30,905 nt of DNA from a virus: the IMG/VR virus record IMGVR_UViG_3300047563_000169, positions 1 to 30,905 of that record. One strand, written 5' to 3'. Both the position numbers and the translations under genes were made by a program. Under the pieces are notes generated by a model, which saw only the letters and a program-made list of their open reading frames with translations, did no database searches and had not been told where the DNA came from. Below are positions 194 to 30,043 of this stretch, one piece after another; the first letter of the stretch is position 1; every line of letters begins with the position of its first letter.

Positions 194-1017
194 CTATTTA
201 AACACCATGATATCCGTATAGTTTGAATTAAAGTTCACAGAGTTCGTAACAAACGACCTATTAGCCTCTTTGAATGGGTTACCAACTGTACTATTCTCAA
301 TCCACTCGCACAGCTCAATGATGGATGACTTGTTACTGTGAAGTAAAAGAACCTAGTCCCATCAAGAACTGTCAGCACATCCAAATAGTCAGCCAGCTTC
401 CAATAGCCTTTATATGGCGTGGTGTCAGTCGATAAGTATGGAGGATCAACCAAGAACACCACACACTCATTATCCTTATACTGTTGGAATATTTTCTTAT
501 AGTCATCTGATACACGCTCAACACCCACAAGATAGCCATCAGCGTTATAGTCACTCATCCGCATAGTATTATACATAGTTGCTTTTTGGAACTCCTCCAG
601 GTTCAAATGATATTTACCACTAAACAATATCGAACTACTAACGGTTATCCAATCAACAAAACCCGCCTTATCTTCCTGCTCCAATCGCTTAATGATAGCC
701 GATTTATAGGGTGCATCAATTTTTTTATCTTTTGGATACCCGTCTAAAATCACCCGTAAATCAGCCAACAAAGCATTGGTTTTGTCTACATTTTGAAGCC
801 TTAGGGAATAATTATCGAAATCATTATAAATAACTGTTGCCTCTGGGTAATGTTGCTTAACGGTGTGGCTCAATAGCCCCGAACCTCCAAACAAATCCAC
901 ATAAACAGCCTCAGGCGGATAGTTCTCTAATGCGCTGACAAAACTTTTCAAAAAGTTTCTTTTTTGCCCCATAAATGGCAGCGGTGCGGTGTTAAATTTT
1001 CTGCTTTTTTTCTGCAT
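194..1017 (-). CDS. D12-class DNA adenine N6-methyltransferase (Dam-like), frameshifted near its C-terminus
   Basis: The enzyme would transfer a methyl group from S-adenosylmethionine to adenine N6 in DNA. Motifs seen are FMGQK (residues 15-19), DLFGGSG (41-47, SAM binding) and DPPY (191-194, catalytic). The literal open frame is 235-1017 (260 aa), but after FFYFT (about residue 227) the sequence stops looking like the family. Reading on after one missing base near 334-340 gives NKSSIIELCEWIEN, then FVTNSVNF, and ends at TAG 194-196 just before a terminator. The intact protein would be about 274 aa. This is either a recent one-base deletion, a phase switch or a sequencing error. It sits beside a thymidylate-synthase-like gene at the phage right end, where Mu keeps its mom modification gene. 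The family call is firm; target site is unknown. Confidence 0.85.
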
Positions 1018-1084
1018 TTTTTTGATTTAAAATTTGTTTAATTGATTGATGATTTGTATATTTATAGTGTATTCAAAGGGTGAT

Positions 1085-1726
1085 TTATGCCCCAACGTTA
1101 AGGTTAAATTTTGGTGATTTCCCTTCGAGCAATTCCTTTGTTGCCTCGAAGTTATTTTCATAAATATGAACGTTGCCCAAGTACAACGTTATGCTCTTGA
1201 GCTGAACATCGATTTGTTTACTAATCAGATACAAATGATATATGTCACAAGGTAAACCAAGCGAAGCATCCGAGCTTCTTTGATAAGCAGTAACAACCAA
1301 CTTATTGTTTTCTATTTGAAACTGTATTAAGCTTAAACACGGCTGCTGATTGCTCTCGGTGTTGGTAGAACCAAGAAACAAAACATAATTCTTAGATGGC
1401 CGCTTTTCTCTATTAATCTTCTCAATAAGCTTTGGCAACTGCTCAAAGTAAGTAGGATAGCTGTTAACCAATATAGGACCGCAATAGTCCCACCAGTTTA
1501 CGCCTATATTCCGATAAGCTTCTGTCGAACGTTCTCCACTCATAAATAAGTTCAGTTCATCCTTAAGTTTCTTCTTTACTAGCGCATGCCCTTCAAACAG
1601 CTCCAATAAGTCAATTGGCTTTAGTTCAAGAGCTTGGTTCAACAGATAAGTAATAGCTCCTTTTTTGTTAGCCTGATGTTTACCTTTATTGACTATTTTA
1701 GTCAAAATTTGATGGTATTTGTTCAT
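1085..1726 (-). CDS. Thymidylate-synthase-fold pyrimidine (hydroxy)methylase, possibly dCMP-specific
   Basis: This 213-aa protein matches the ThyA fold. It has PC-x4-QF around Cys130 (active-site nucleophile; the usual His after it is Leu), QRSSD at 149-153 (compare QRSCD, dUMP phosphate binding), LGLPCD at 156-161 (compare LGLPFN) and GNVHIYE at 184-190 (compare GDxHxYxN). It is about 50 residues shorter than E. coli ThyA, and the N-terminal RTGTGT loop is not recognisable. The Asn that reads the uracil ring is Asp161. In T4 dCMP hydroxymethylase the equivalent residue is Asp179, and this change favours dCMP. I infer a phage nucleotide-modifying enzyme that makes a modified cytosine precursor; plain thymidylate synthase or an inactive relative are alternatives. 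It is co-oriented with the adjacent methyltransferase gene. Confidence 0.7.
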   Translation of the reverse strand: MNKYHQILTKIVNKGKHQANKKGAITYLLNQALELKPIDLLELFEGHALVKKKLKDELNLFMSGERSTEAYRNIGVNWWDYCGPILVNSYPTYFEQLPKLIEKINREKRPSKNYVLFLGSTNTESNQQPCLSLIQFQIENNKLVVTAYQRSSDASLGLPCDIYHLYLISKQIDVQLKSITLYLGNVHIYENNFEATKELLEGKSPKFNLNVGA

Positions 1727-21486: not shown

Positions 21487-22671
21487 TTGGCTGATGACTC
21501 TTTTGAGGCGCTGTATAACGATATCGCCAAGCAGCTTCTTGATGACCCCAACGCAGAATTTAATCCCGAAATATACAACGAAACGGCCAAAAAGTTAATT
21601 GATGCTATTGCCGATGGATTGGGAGGTACTTCATTTGAATATAATGATGATCGGAATTTATTTTCAACCCAATTAAACCAAAACATTTATAAGTTCTCTG
21701 CTGCTAAGTCATTAACAGAAATGTTGCACTTTAGAAGTTTAATGACTGACGAAAAAGGAAGTCTTTTAAGTTTTGATAGCTTCAAAGCAAAAGTAGCCAA
21801 CGAAGGAAAATTTTTCAATAACACGTATTTGCAATCGGAGTTTAATGTCGCTAAGATGAGTGCAATCAATGGGAACAAATTCAACACTATTGAAAGTGAG
21901 TATCTGCAGTTTAGTACCGTTGGGGATAATAGGGTACGTGAGAGCCATCAATTACTTGATAAAATAACATTACCTAAAGACAGCCCGGCTTGGAGTAGAA
22001 TGATGCCACCGTTAGACTTTGGCTGTCGTTGTACTATTATACCAGGAAAGAAAGAACTGATTACTAAGACTGAATCGCAAGCCGGAAGCTTGGCTAAAGA
22101 AATCGTTACTGACCCATTATTTTTTAATAACCCTGGAGTAAGCAAAGTAATTTATAAAGATGATCATCCCTACTTTCAGGCAAGTAAAGGAAAAGAAAGT
22201 CAGTTGAGCTTTGAGCAATATGGGCTTGATGGATTGGGTAAAATTTTAACCCGGACTGACCTACCAAGCTGGAGTGAAAAGTCAATGCCGGAATATCTAG
22301 GTTGGTGGAAAGATAACGCCAATCACGATGGAAACATAATTGTAAAAGACAATAGTGGTAAGAGCATCTTATTTACTGAAAAGTTTAAAGAGCATATAAA
22401 CGACAATCCATTAGAAAAGCGGTTTCAGTTTGGCTCTGAATTAAAAAACATAGTTGAAAAGCCAGATGAAGTATGGTCTTTTAAAGACCCAAAGAATGGT
22501 GAAATAAATAAGTTATACATTCGGTATTACGATCCGAAAGACTTGAATAATGGCACAGGCGCATTAATGGTTATTACCAGGAATAATGAGGCGCATTCGC
22601 TTTATGAAATTACTGAAGAGCGACGATTGAAAGAAGTGCGTCGTGGTATTCTGGAATATGCAAAAAAATAG
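21487..22671 (+). CDS. Minor head protein, MuF-like (Mu gp30)
   Basis: The MuF family protein is injected or binds the portal and is needed for head assembly. The hallmark is VGDNRVRESHQLLDKITLPK (152-171) followed by WSRMMPPLDFGCRCTIIPGKK. The first ATG-independent start is TTG at 21487 (394 aa), but the frame is open upstream to 21355 and continues with protein-like sequence: VGQLNDLYDSTCKVCGGIHL. So the true N-terminus probably lies upstream, reached by a rare start or by the -1 frameshift in the portal tail. The C-terminal part (EYLGWWKDNANHDGN onward) looks like an added domain after the MuF core, as in MuF proteins that carry toxin or other cargo domains. Confidence 0.75.
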   Translation: MADDSFEALYNDIAKQLLDDPNAEFNPEIYNETAKKLIDAIADGLGGTSFEYNDDRNLFSTQLNQNIYKFSAAKSLTEMLHFRSLMTDEKGSLLSFDSFKAKVANEGKFFNNTYLQSEFNVAKMSAINGNKFNTIESEYLQFSTVGDNRVRESHQLLDKITLPKDSPAWSRMMPPLDFGCRCTIIPGKKELITKTESQAGSLAKEIVTDPLFFNNPGVSKVIYKDDHPYFQASKGKESQLSFEQYGLDGLGKILTRTDLPSWSEKSMPEYLGWWKDNANHDGNIIVKDNSGKSILFTEKFKEHINDNPLEKRFQFGSELKNIVEKPDEVWSFKDPKNGEINKLYIRYYDPKDLNNGTGALMVITRNNEAHSLYEITEERRLKEVRRGILEYAKK

Positions 22672-25309: not shown

Positions 25310-25606
25310 TTAAGTGAATTCTGGGTAATCATTATTTTTCACGATTGTAGTTGTAAAAGGGAATTTATCTTCGGGGACTTCTTTAATCATTTGCATCAGT
25401 ATTTTAGAGCCAGTGAAAACAACAAACTTTGTTTCGTTCCTTTCTATTTGAAGTGTTAAGTAATCTGTGTTTTCTTTTTTTGTAGACTTGTCGATTTTGA
25501 AGCCGGTTACTTTTATTTCTTGATTTAATATTTTATCGATTTTCATTTTGTCTCCAACAAAGCAGTTGGGTTGAGCTTTTATTCCTAAATCTTTAAATTT
25601 TGTCAT
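25310..25606 (-). CDS. OB-fold-like small protein coupled to the DGR reverse transcriptase
   Basis: The 98-aa protein has a beta-strand pattern (KIDKILNQEIKVTGFKI, DYLTLQIERNETKFVVFTGS) that resembles OB-fold or ssDNA-binding-type small proteins of Bacteroidota phages. Its ATG lies inside the reverse transcriptase gene, 14 bp before its stop, so translation is probably coupled. A role in cDNA handling is possible, but the same kind of protein also occurs in phages without a DGR, so linkage may be incidental. Confidence 0.55.
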   Translation of the reverse strand: MTKFKDLGIKAQPNCFVGDKMKIDKILNQEIKVTGFKIDKSTKKENTDYLTLQIERNETKFVVFTGSKILMQMIKEVPEDKFPFTTTIVKNNDYPEFT

Positions 25607-26555
25607 TTGGTAATAATTTTTTTAATAAGTTTTTTGTATTGGCGTGTTTAGTCCAGCCTTTATAGGCTGCGATTGTGGCTTTGTTTTTGTTTTTGGATAC
25701 TGCTTTAGCAAATCTTCTTTTGATTGATGGACGAAGTAATGTGTGCGTGTGAAAGTGAACATAACCAACAAAGTCAATCCCTCTTTTGGCAACTGGGAAT
25801 ACTTGATAATTTTTCTTTACCAGTAGCTTTAAATTATTATTTAAATACTGTTTAATATCAAATAAAATTTCATGTAAATGTGGTTTGTTGTTTGAGAGTA
25901 TCACGATGTCATCAGCGTATCTGAAGTAATATTTCACTTGTTTTGTTTCTTTGATCCAGTGGTCAAAATAGGTGAGGTAAAAATTGGCAAAATACTGACT
26001 CAAATAATTACCTATTGGTAAACCCTCAGCGCTGTCTATAATTTCATCAAGTAACCAAAGAAGGTCGTTGTCCTTGATTTTTTTTCGTAGCAAGTGCTTT
26101 AAAATATCATGATTAACATTTGGATAAAATTTAGTGATGTCGAGCTTGAGGCAATAAGTTGTATCCTCCTGGTCCTGCAATGCAATTTTTATATTATTGG
26201 AAGCTTGGTGAATACCTTTTCCTTTGATGCTACTATAGGTGTCATTAGTAAACCACTTTGTAAATAATGGCTCTAAGACGTTCATAATAGCATGATGAGT
26301 AATACGGTCGGGAAAGTATGGAAGTCTGAATACAAGCCGCTCCTTTGGCTCAAAAACCTTGAAAGTTTGATATTCAGAAGTTCGATAAGTTTTTAATTTT
26401 AAAATCTCATGAAGCATCTCTAAATTATACTCCTTATTTTTATCAAACTGTCGAACACCATACTGATTTGACTTGCCTCTTCTTGCTTTCAACTCAGAAG
26501 CTTCGAGGTTTTCGGGTGATATTATTTTTTCGTATAAATTGCCTATTCTTTTCAT
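25593..26555 (-). CDS. DGR reverse transcriptase
   Basis: The 320-aa RT makes mutagenised cDNA from the template repeat RNA. Motifs seen: N-terminal basic region with RRGKSNQYGVRQF; FRLPYFPDRITHHAIMNVLE (76-95); KLDITKFYPNV with the first catalytic Asp (139); GLPIGNYLSQ (178-187), matching the DGR-specific motif [ILV]GxxxSQ; YADD (213-216), the polymerase centre; and GIDFVGY (259-265). No maturase or endonuclease domain exists, so this is not a group II intron. Start ATG at 26555 lies 104 bp from the template repeat, with the usual order target-TR-RT. Confidence 0.95.
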   Translation of the reverse strand: MKRIGNLYEKIISPENLEASELKARRGKSNQYGVRQFDKNKEYNLEMLHEILKLKTYRTSEYQTFKVFEPKERLVFRLPYFPDRITHHAIMNVLEPLFTKWFTNDTYSSIKGKGIHQASNNIKIALQDQEDTTYCLKLDITKFYPNVNHDILKHLLRKKIKDNDLLWLLDEIIDSAEGLPIGNYLSQYFANFYLTYFDHWIKETKQVKYYFRYADDIVILSNNKPHLHEILFDIKQYLNNNLKLLVKKNYQVFPVAKRGIDFVGYVHFHTHTLLRPSIKRRFAKAVSKNKNKATIAAYKGWTKHANTKNLLKKLLPNDKI

Positions 26556-26658
26556 GCCTTGTTATTGTAGCTCTCTTTCAATTATTTACTAAAGAACTGT
26601 TGTTCAAATTTGTTTTTTGCTATGTGAGCAAGGTCTGCAACGCCTATTGTAACAATTT

Positions 26659-26730
26659 GGGCACTGACATTCGAGTTCGTATTCCAGTTATCGTAGTCGT
26701 TGTACGAAAACACGGGACCCGACGAAGAAC
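26659..26730 (-). repeat. DGR template repeat (TR), 72 bp
   Basis: On the minus strand it reads from GTTCTTCGTCGGGTCCC to GTCAGTGCCC. It lies in the gap between the last target gene and the RT gene and is not inside a gene. It contains 16 adenines, all in the last 45 nt; the first 27 nt have none. In frame with the targets it would encode YNDYDNWNTNSNV, a series of Asn-, Asp- and Tyr-type codons typical of mutable DGR templates. Each variable repeat matches it except at adenines. Confidence 0.97.
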
Positions 26731-26759
26731 TACAGTATTGCATTGCACCACCGGTATTA

Positions 26760-27137
26760 TTATTTAATCTTTCTTTGGTAAACCATCATTTTTTCATAGA
26801 GTTCTGGGAACGCTTCAAAAATATGTTTGCTTGCTTCTATTGATTCCGAAACAAGGCGGGCACCGACATCCGAGTGCGCAGCCCAGCAACCGTAGCCGTA
26901 GTACGAAAACACGGGACCCGACGAAGAACCGAGCTGCACAACTGGATTGTACTTCCGCTGAGTAAAATCACTAAAATCAGGATTAAACTCATTATTGACA
27001 AAATCATTTACCATGCATAAATGTGCAAAAGCTTTCACAGCTTCAATATGTCTTTCAGGAATTCCGGTTACTGATACTGCATTGGCATCAAGACCATCAG
27101 CATCATATGCTTGTTGTATGTTTTTAATTTTTTGCAT
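26760..27137 (-). CDS. DGR target protein 1
   Basis: The 125-aa soluble protein has an N-terminal helical part (IPERHIEAVKAFAHL), a conserved connector SDFTQRKYNPVVQLG, the variable segment (residues 71-92: SSSGPVF constant, then SYYGYGCWAAHSDVG) and a 30-residue helical C-terminal tail after GARL. It belongs to a family of small Bacteroidota proteins with a highly variable aromatic- and Asn/Asp-rich core ending VGSRL or VGARL. It is not linked to a tail gene and has no signal peptide. The variable repeat is not at the extreme C-terminus as in many DGR targets. The TR follows 29 bp after its stop. Confidence 0.85.
   Translation of the reverse strand: MQKIKNIQQAYDADGLDANAVSVTGIPERHIEAVKAFAHLCMVNDFVNNEFNPDFSDFTQRKYNPVVQLGSSSGPVFSYYGYGCWAAHSDVGARLVSESIEASKHIFEAFPELYEKMMVYQRKIK
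26858..26929 (-). repeat. Variable repeat 1 (VR1)
   Basis: The 72-bp segment differs from the template at 11 positions, all template adenines (changes to T, G and C), and is identical at all 56 non-adenine positions. It encodes SYYGYGCWAAHSDVG where the template would give SYNDYDNWNTNSNVS. Confidence 0.97.
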
Positions 27138-27149
27138 TTCTTTTGATTA

Positions 27150-27521
27150 TTAAGTTCTTGATTTTTCGAATTGTGGAAGGAATTTCGTAACCGCATCTAT
27201 CATATTATCATAAGCATCTTTGCCATGAAAAACTTGGCGGGCACCGACACCCGAGCCCGTACACCAGTAATCGCAGACGTTGCACGAAAACACGGGACCC
27301 GACGAAGAACCAAGTTGAAAACATGGATGATACTTAGGAGTTCCATCGCAAAAGTCCGGTAGCTTTCCATCATTGTAGTAAGCAACAATCATTTTTTCTT
27401 CGCGATAGCCAATTTCATCACTGGTTAAGCCTTCGCAAAATTTTTCAAACGCTTCTTTTGTAGTGTTGTGAAAAGCATAGATTTCATCCATGCTTTTGAT
27501 TTCTGTTTTTTTCTTTGTCAT
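27150..27521 (-). CDS. DGR target protein 2
   Basis: I choose the ATG at 27521 (123 aa, MTKKKTEIKSMDEIYAF) rather than an upstream one at 27584, because the longer form would overlap target gene 3 and begins with unlikely sequence. The protein has an N-terminal helical part, the connector YNDGKLPDFCDGTPKYHPCF, the constant SSSGPVF, then the variable part SCNVCDYWCTGSGVG and a tail YDNMIDAVTKFLP shared with target 3. It has four Cys in or near the variable loop, all but one produced by A-to-G or A-to-T changes. Confidence 0.85.
   Translation of the reverse strand: MTKKKTEIKSMDEIYAFHNTTKEAFEKFCEGLTSDEIGYREEKMIVAYYNDGKLPDFCDGTPKYHPCFQLGSSSGPVFSCNVCDYWCTGSGVGARQVFHGKDAYDNMIDAVTKFLPQFEKSRT
27239..27310 (-). 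repeat. Variable repeat 2 (VR2)
   Basis: Differs from the template at 11 positions, all at template adenines, with full identity at the 56 other positions. It encodes CNVCDYWCTGSGV in place of YNDYDNWNTNSNV. Confidence 0.97.
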
Positions 27522-27531
27522 TTTGAGTGTT

Positions 27532-27984
27532 TTAAGATGTTTGTAATTGTTCGTAGTATGGTAAGAATTTAGTAACGGCATCAATCATATTGTCATAAGA
27601 CAAATAATCAAGGCGGGCACCGACAAACGAGCCCGTACGCCAGAAATCGTAGTCGTGGTACGAAAACACGGGACCCGACGAAGAACCAAGTTGAAAACGT
27701 GGATGATACTTTCTTTGATTAGTATCACTATAGTCTGGTAACTGACCTTCATTATATGCTGCCACAATAAGTTTACAGCTTTCATAGGCAGCTGTGTTAG
27801 CAGAACGCCCTTTAATTAATTCCTGATACTGTTGCTCAGTCATGTTGTTTTCTCTCAGTACATCAGCGAATGTATTGACGCGTTCTTTGATGTCTTTTGG
27901 TAATTCAACAAAGGTGATTTCTCCTTTTGTCTCATCGAAAAGAGCTTTGTGTCCTTTCGGAATGTCAATTTTAATTTTGTTCAT
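27532..27984 (-). CDS. DGR target protein 3
   Basis: The 150-aa protein begins with MNKIKIDIPKGHKALFDETK, then strands and helices (DIKERVNTFADVLRENNMTE), the connector YNEGQLPDYSDTNQRKYHPR, the constant SSSGPVF, the variable part SYHDYDFWRTGSFVG and the tail YDNMIDAVTKFLPYYEQL. The N-terminal DIPKGHKALFDETKGEITF-type region is shared with many Bacteroidota proteins of this kind. Targets 2 and 3 are close paralogues at both flanks of the variable part. It is the first gene of the target-TR-RT transcript. Confidence 0.85.
   Translation of the reverse strand: MNKIKIDIPKGHKALFDETKGEITFVELPKDIKERVNTFADVLRENNMTEQQYQELIKGRSANTAAYESCKLIVAAYNEGQLPDYSDTNQRKYHPRFQLGSSSGPVFSYHDYDFWRTGSFVGARLDYLSYDNMIDAVTKFLPYYEQLQTS
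27615..27686 (-). repeat. Variable repeat 3 (VR3)
   Basis: Differs from the template at 10 positions, all template adenines, with full identity at the 56 other positions. It encodes YHDYDFWRTGSFV in place of YNDYDNWNTNSNV. Confidence 0.97.
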
Positions 27985-28011
27985 TTTATTGTTGTTTTAA
28001 ATTTTACGTTT

Positions 28012-28086
28012 AATAAACCGGAAGGATGTAGCGGTCCAATTTTAGTATGTTGTTAGTTTTTTATTTTGCTAGGCCTCCCGGTTATT
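28012..28086 (-). promoter_or_regulatory. Stem-loop leader upstream of the DGR target operon
   Basis: AATAA-CCGG-AGG-type arms at 28012-28025 and 28074-28086 pair with one bulge and one mismatch, enclosing an unpaired A/T-rich loop of about 48 nt. It lies directly after the stop of the 174-aa gene and before target gene 3 (gap 28 nt between stem and ATG region is A-rich). It could be a weak terminator for the upstream genes, or a control element for the DGR transcript. Confidence 0.4.
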
Positions 28087-29975: not shown

Positions 29976-30043
29976 TCCCGGAGCAGGTTTCGAACCTGTC
30001 TTACACCCCAACTGTAAGCTGCGCCAATTATCGCTATCCGGGA
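29976..30043 (-). tRNA. tRNA-Pro(UGG)-like sequence, degenerate
   Basis: The minus strand gives a perfect 7-bp acceptor (TCCCGGA with TCCGGGA), D-arm GCG/CGC with GG in the loop, anticodon arm TTACA/TGTAA with 7-nt loop GTTGGGG (U33, anticodon TGG, G37) and a T-arm AGG-TTCGAAA-CCT. It spans 68 nt and the variable loop is almost absent (1-2 nt), so it is shorter than normal. No CCA is encoded. A phage tRNA, a tRNA mimic or a decayed attachment copy are all possible. Confidence 0.5.

Follow-up and report, generated by a model that had tools for sequence, protein, structure and literature searches.

A three-target diversity-generating retroelement with a predicted OB-fold gene coupled to its reverse transcriptase in a Mu-like phage of Bacteroidota

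Introduction

In the diversity-generating retroelement (DGR) of the Bordetella phage BPP-1 (bRT, Avd, mtd), changes from the template repeat (TR) to the variable repeat (VR) are adenine-specific, the IMH of the VR differs from the IMH* of the TR, and the spacer between TR and reverse transcriptase (RT) is structured. Avd, which lies between target and TR, is required (PMC12875486), and because BPP-1 needs it, Avd is regarded as a core DGR component. BPP-1 has one target, a tail protein with the VR at its C-terminus, and tail proteins make up most of the targets of phage DGRs (PMC8144416).

Here we analyzed the whole of one IMG/VR record of 30,905 bp, referred to as the window. It is a Mu-like phage of Bacteroidota with a genuine DGR, whose three targets, all small proteins, would be rewritten over short segments at TR adenines. 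This DGR is a member of a widespread, recently active family in which two paired targets are the normal plan. The locus shares with BPP-1 the three features named first above, but lacks an Avd, has a gene with a predicted OB fold after the RT, and has three small targets outside the tail module.

Three further groups of described systems are close to this locus. The Bacteroides hankyphage p00 (PMC6199706) is likewise Mu-like, with a homologous RT, the same OB-fold domain and a similar VR segment, and both phages carry thymidylate synthase and methyltransferase genes. In hankyphage, however, the OB-fold domain lies inside the RT polypeptide, the TR and VR are about 116 bp, and there is a single, very large target whose VR lies near residue 2200 (PMC6199706). 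The archaeal virus ANMV-1 (PMC4372165) has an OB-fold homologue immediately after its RT, as in the window, but its RT is only 37% identical and its single, larger target, adtA, is located beside tail-fibre genes; that study depicts an Avd in the ANMV-1 DGR. Tentaclins (PMC10743442) and Bacuni phages (PMC8143477) provide precedents for one TR serving more than one target in a phage. Their two targets are dissimilar or far apart and have C-type lectin domains, and Bacuni phages have Avd, whereas the targets in the window are small tandem paralogues.

Results

The cassette lies on the minus strand, in the order of ORFs of 150, 123 and 125 aa, then TR, RT and a 98-aa ORF (Table 1). The TR and three VRs, of 72 bp each, align in register. 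An earlier note, made from the letters of the window, had counted 11, 11 and 10 VR differences, every one at a TR adenine, and had proposed this alignment as a check; realignment returned the same counts, with each of the 32 differences falling on one of the 16 TR adenines and none in 168 comparisons at other bases. The adenines were changed to G (19), T (9) or C (4). The probability that random mismatches would all fall on A is approximately 3e-26, or 3e-24 without column 65, where an A>G change is common to all three VRs and the equivalent change is a fixed feature of almost every VR in related loci. Column 65 is thus better read as an IMH/IMH* mark than as an independent mutation, leaving 29 of the 32 changes informative. 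Directly 3' of the 72 bp, AAA in the TR is replaced by GCC in all three VRs. An IMH in the VRs and a differing IMH* in the TR are therefore both present, marked by the fixed A>G and AAA/GCC differences and conserved across loci.

Table 1. Positions of the DGR components in the window.
Feature	Position	Strand	Description	Basis
98-aa RT-coupled protein, predicted OB fold	25310..25606	-	overlaps RT 3' end by 14 nt	phrog_19665
DGR reverse transcriptase	25593..26555	-	320 aa; GLPIGNYLSQ, YADD	PF00078, phrog_1423, 8ub7, RT tree
Spacer hairpin 2	26569..26598	-	between TR and RT start	covarying pairs in 32 loci
Spacer hairpin 1	26617..26631	-	TTGCT-CACAT-AGCAA	covarying pairs in 32 loci
IMH*	26652..26669	-	3' end of TR, GTCAGTGCCCAAATTG; VR copies GTCGGTGCCCGCC	
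TR	26659..26730	-	16 adenines, mostly within AAC/AAT codons	repeat alignment
Target B (proximal)	26760..27137	-	125 aa, contains VR; groups with proximal clade	
VR of target B	26858..26929	-	11 differences from TR, all at adenines	
Target A' (middle)	27150..27521	-	123 aa, contains VR; distal clade, not proximal	
VR of target A'	27239..27310	-	11 differences from TR, all at adenines	
Target A (distal)	27532..27984	-	150 aa, contains VR; groups with distal-target clade	
VR of target A	27615..27686	-	10 differences from TR, all at adenines	

The RT matched PF00078 (RVT_1, 1.1e-19) and phrog_1423 (9e-119). Its best match among solved structures was 8ub7 (E 1.4e-41), the BPP-1 DGR RT, which scored roughly double the bits of the matches ranked after it. 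Both sequence motifs reported earlier are present, the first including the SQ motif. In a tree of 32 RTs, the window RT grouped with those of BPP-1, hankyphage, ANMV-1 and other DGRs, and the DGR RTs were split from group II-type RTs with a support of 100. The RT thus falls inside the DGR clade, a position outside which would have contradicted the DGR reading of the note.

Two hairpins are predicted in the spacer that separates TR from RT. Over 32 loci, 97.9% of the cells at their paired positions were paired, compared with 78.4% in shuffles, with 89 double changes versus 23 and a covariation score of 0.678 versus 0.263; pairing collapsed when the partners were slid against each other. No Rfam family matched the spacer RNA.

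Taken by its sequence, this is a functional-looking DGR. The earlier description of it as complete has to be qualified, since it comes without an Avd and the conserved 98-aa gene, which may stand in for Avd, had been overlooked; the left limit, put at 25593, has to be moved, as the cassette also takes in 25310-25592. The label of Mu-like prophage stands in its first half, given matches to Portal_Mu, Phage_Mu_F, a Mu-like protease, Phage_tail_S, DUF3164 and a tail sheath; its second half finds no support, the record being an isolated IMG/VR contig. Elsewhere in the window, a Mu F-like head protein (21487-22671, plus strand) carries a C-terminal PBECR2 nuclease-type domain (PF18810), like MuF polymorphic-toxin fusions. 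DNA methyltransferase and thymidylate synthase genes (235-1726, minus strand) have their functional counterparts at the right end of hankyphage p00. A tRNA-like stretch (29976-30043, minus strand), in which 7 bp pair like an acceptor stem and a loop reads GGTTCGAAACC, was called by neither ARAGORN nor Rfam.

Related loci were collected by an RT similarity search of viral contigs and genomes, giving 147 loci, mostly from Bacteroidota, and 148 with the window. An HMM search found the gene for the 98-aa protein, hereafter the partner gene, in 141 of them. It directly follows the RT in 123 (start -10 to +33 nt from the RT end), is in frame with the RT in two, lies between target and RT in eight, and is slightly downstream in another eight. 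The seven loci with no match comprise two contig ends and five lacking the gene, four of these five with RTs of less than 50% identity. A script had flagged eight loci as fused; the flag was rejected because the partner gene there sits between target and RT, so that L082 and L115 are the only true in-frame fusions among the 148. In addition, the OB-fold domain occupies residues 327-434 of the hankyphage p00 RT itself, G453 and G571 encode RT and partner as a single ORF, and the archaeal viruses ANMV-1 and vir525 have a separate partner gene directly after the RT. No partner was detected in BPP-1, Perkons, LBR48, Arawn or ACA1, and the match in a crAss-like RT was marginal only. In the LoVEphage record (L158, 2799-4342), the RT is apparently split: the annotated RT ORF is without its end, and a later ORF carries the RT C-terminal part together with the OB-fold domain.

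An AlphaFold2 model of the 98-aa protein (pLDDT 90.5) has OB-fold topology, its predicted order of strands and helix fitting a five-stranded barrel with a helix between strands 3 and 4. Structural neighbours were chiefly OB-fold proteins, SSB, RuvBL DII, LEF-3 and Teb1 among them, at modest Z-scores (at most 6.9, below 8); the SSB 3pgz gave a Z of 6.0 and an rmsd of 2.4 over 67 residues. A Foldseek search returned no hit passing an E-value of 0.001.

The alternative that best survives is an ordinary DGR whose RT happens to be followed by a neutral neighbour, such as a single-stranded DNA-binding protein of the phage. The OB fold is common and is shared with general SSBs, and the high linkage of partner and RT must in part be inheritance within one RT clade, as RT similarity was the criterion by which the 148 loci were collected. 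Against a neutral neighbour stand the in-frame fusions in hankyphage, G453, G571, L115 and L082, and a partner adjoining the distant RTs (about 35-37% identical) of ANMV-1 and hankyphage. No partner hits were found away from RTs in two further genome sets: all six hits in 395 Bacteroidia genomes were within 13 nt of an RT, and the three hits in 349 Flavobacteriaceae genomes were the three RT loci, among a limited number of candidates scored per genome and with some genomes already the source of loci. We therefore consider a neutral neighbour unlikely, and favour an RT-coupled cofactor. In one further genome, a second partner hit fell in an ORF of 451 aa, as long as an RT fusion would be expected to be.

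bAvd (PF22296) was not detected in the window, with the BPP-1 control scoring 123 bits. Nor was it found in 22 of 23 cassette-bearing virus records (window included), or in a further set of nine virus records. In the sole exception, the L073 phage, bAvd is some 30 kb away from the cassette and adjoins a second, distant RT, near which no partner gene was seen. This record (G019:C1:3757-5276) thus encodes two different DGR RTs: the first is of the OB-fold type, and the other, 30% identical, is the one next to bAvd. As bAvd is found at this second RT and not at the cassettes, Avd and the OB-fold gene look like alternatives in this limited sample. Some bacterial host genomes encode bAvd-like proteins elsewhere, which could act in trans; these chromosomal hits were rejected as a DGR Avd, and none among the hits listed falls at the RT and partner positions. 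Small ORFs near the RT have sometimes been called Avd in earlier papers from their size and charge. A gene of about 138 aa that follows the RT of gut loci (phrog_11557) was also considered and rejected, its sequence being unlike Avd and one homologue being annotated as DUF4376.

Adenine-biased TR/VR pairs were detected in 137 of the 148 loci, and 3708 of 3854 mismatches family-wide are at A, a proportion to be read with the detector itself having demanded at least 75% of mismatches at A. Among the 116 loci with the A/B target family, 99 have two VRs, 12 have three (window included), one has four and four have one. Three targets, described as unusual by the earlier note, are so only mildly: the lineage norm is two and about 10% of loci have three or more, making the window a modest variation on a two-target plan. 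In the four-VR locus (L113, 3020-15156), two VRs lie several kb from the RT, so the lineage can reach distant targets too.

In a tree built on non-VR columns, the terminal targets of 104 loci (208 in all) separated by position in 202 cases, into a distal group A of about 150 aa and a proximal group B of about 125 aa. Judged from this tree, the targets are two ancient paralogous families that occur together in a fixed order, with A present twice in the window phage. The middle target A' starts at the ATG at 27521, compared with 27584 from the ORF caller. An imperfect inverted repeat (ACCGGAAGG ... CCTCCCGGT) is located at 28009-28075, just upstream of the first target.

A recent tandem duplication, giving three targets without separate roles, would fit the sporadic occurrence of three-target loci and the grouping of extra copies sometimes with A and sometimes with B. 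It fits poorly with a single non-VR split that separates A and B as clades in the same order across so many loci. A' falls in the A clade but has its nearest relatives in the A targets of L040, L099 and L044 rather than in its own A, which argues that it is not a fresh copy. This explanation is thus improbable, and the paired A/B plan is preferred.

In the relatives, the cassette neighbours are primase, helicase, transposition, HNH nuclease, methyltransferase and terminase genes, not tail genes, and in the window the targets adjoin DUF3164-type early genes, with the tail genes far away. The A/B targets, sited in the early/replication region outside the tail module, depart from the tail-protein rule. 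A Pfam scan of 135 targets returned no family, and NCBIfam yielded no name specific to DGRs. As modelled by AlphaFold2, target A is helix-rich, with low confidence across the VR. No fold was assigned to target A, as this model gave no PDB match worth naming and its viral structural neighbours are uncharacterised. On the question of a C-type lectin domain around the VR, a segment modelled at low confidence, there was no Pfam family and no clear PDB fold match; the VR segment of the window targets resembles that of the hankyphage tail target (hhalign E 1e-5).

The search for adenine-specific changes between related loci, suggested by the earlier note, was run on relatives of the window phage and revealed adenine-only VR differences. 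Over 12,945 bp, a metagenome virus (L037) and a Chitinophagaceae MAG (L089) differ at just 21 positions, every one of which lies inside one of the two VRs and at a TR adenine. In a second pair (L054 and L056), RT, TR and proximal VR are identical and the distal VR differs at 11 adenine sites; with changes in one VR and none in the other, the targets are rewritten independently. The cassettes of both pairs have the partner gene, with no Avd detected in the phage records. Going by these natural pairs, the cassette family is recently active. The search turned up no close relative of the window phage, whose own activity is therefore presumed from that of relatives. A decayed or static remnant, with old VRs and rewriting ended in the window phage, would suit the single available copy of this phage and the absence of the exact TR 5' sequence from the other viral contigs searched, but is highly improbable given the intact RT, partner gene, TR and three target ORFs and the very recent adenine-only changes in both VRs of relatives.

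Discussion

The best overall explanation, to which we assign a probability of roughly 80%, is a three-target DGR with an RT-coupled OB-fold cofactor in the place of Avd and with paired A/B targets. From homology to BPP-1, backed by the natural locus pairs, we infer adenine-specific retrohoming. In analogy to BPP-1, a leftward transcript would carry the TR and spacer, the spacer hairpins would recruit the RT, and the RT would misread TR adenines as it copies the TR. In any of the three targets, the cDNA would then take the place of the VR adjoining the IMH.

The 98-aa protein with the predicted OB fold, whose translation is coupled to that of the RT and which relatives carry as a fusion with it, would be the nucleic-acid-binding partner of the RT. 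It may hold the TR/spacer RNA or single-stranded cDNA, doing the job that Avd does in BPP-1. Linkage, fusion, predicted fold and the lack of Avd all point to such a cofactor role. A search of the open-access literature returned no description of an OB-fold or SSB-like DGR accessory; subscription papers lay outside its scope, and an earlier description is possible.

A broader proposal is a second biochemical class of DGR. Its essential cofactor for templated adenine mutagenesis, in place of Avd, would be an OB-fold protein coupled or fused to the RT, and in Bacteroidota phages it would diversify a conserved heteromeric pair of small non-tail proteins. We put this forward tentatively, at slightly below even odds. 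A complex of A and B, and a role for them away from the tail, are guesses suggested by their pairing and by where they lie.

The lineage described here is a large, recently active group of DGRs with a conserved OB-fold partner and no detectable Avd, which makes the cofactor question directly testable; in a cultured gut phage lineage, that of hankyphage, the partner is fused to the RT. DGRs of this OB-fold lineage may offer a compact alternative for targeted mutagenesis in vivo. For the phages themselves, a conserved A/B pair in the early region suggests that DGRs are put to a use besides tail-fibre variation.
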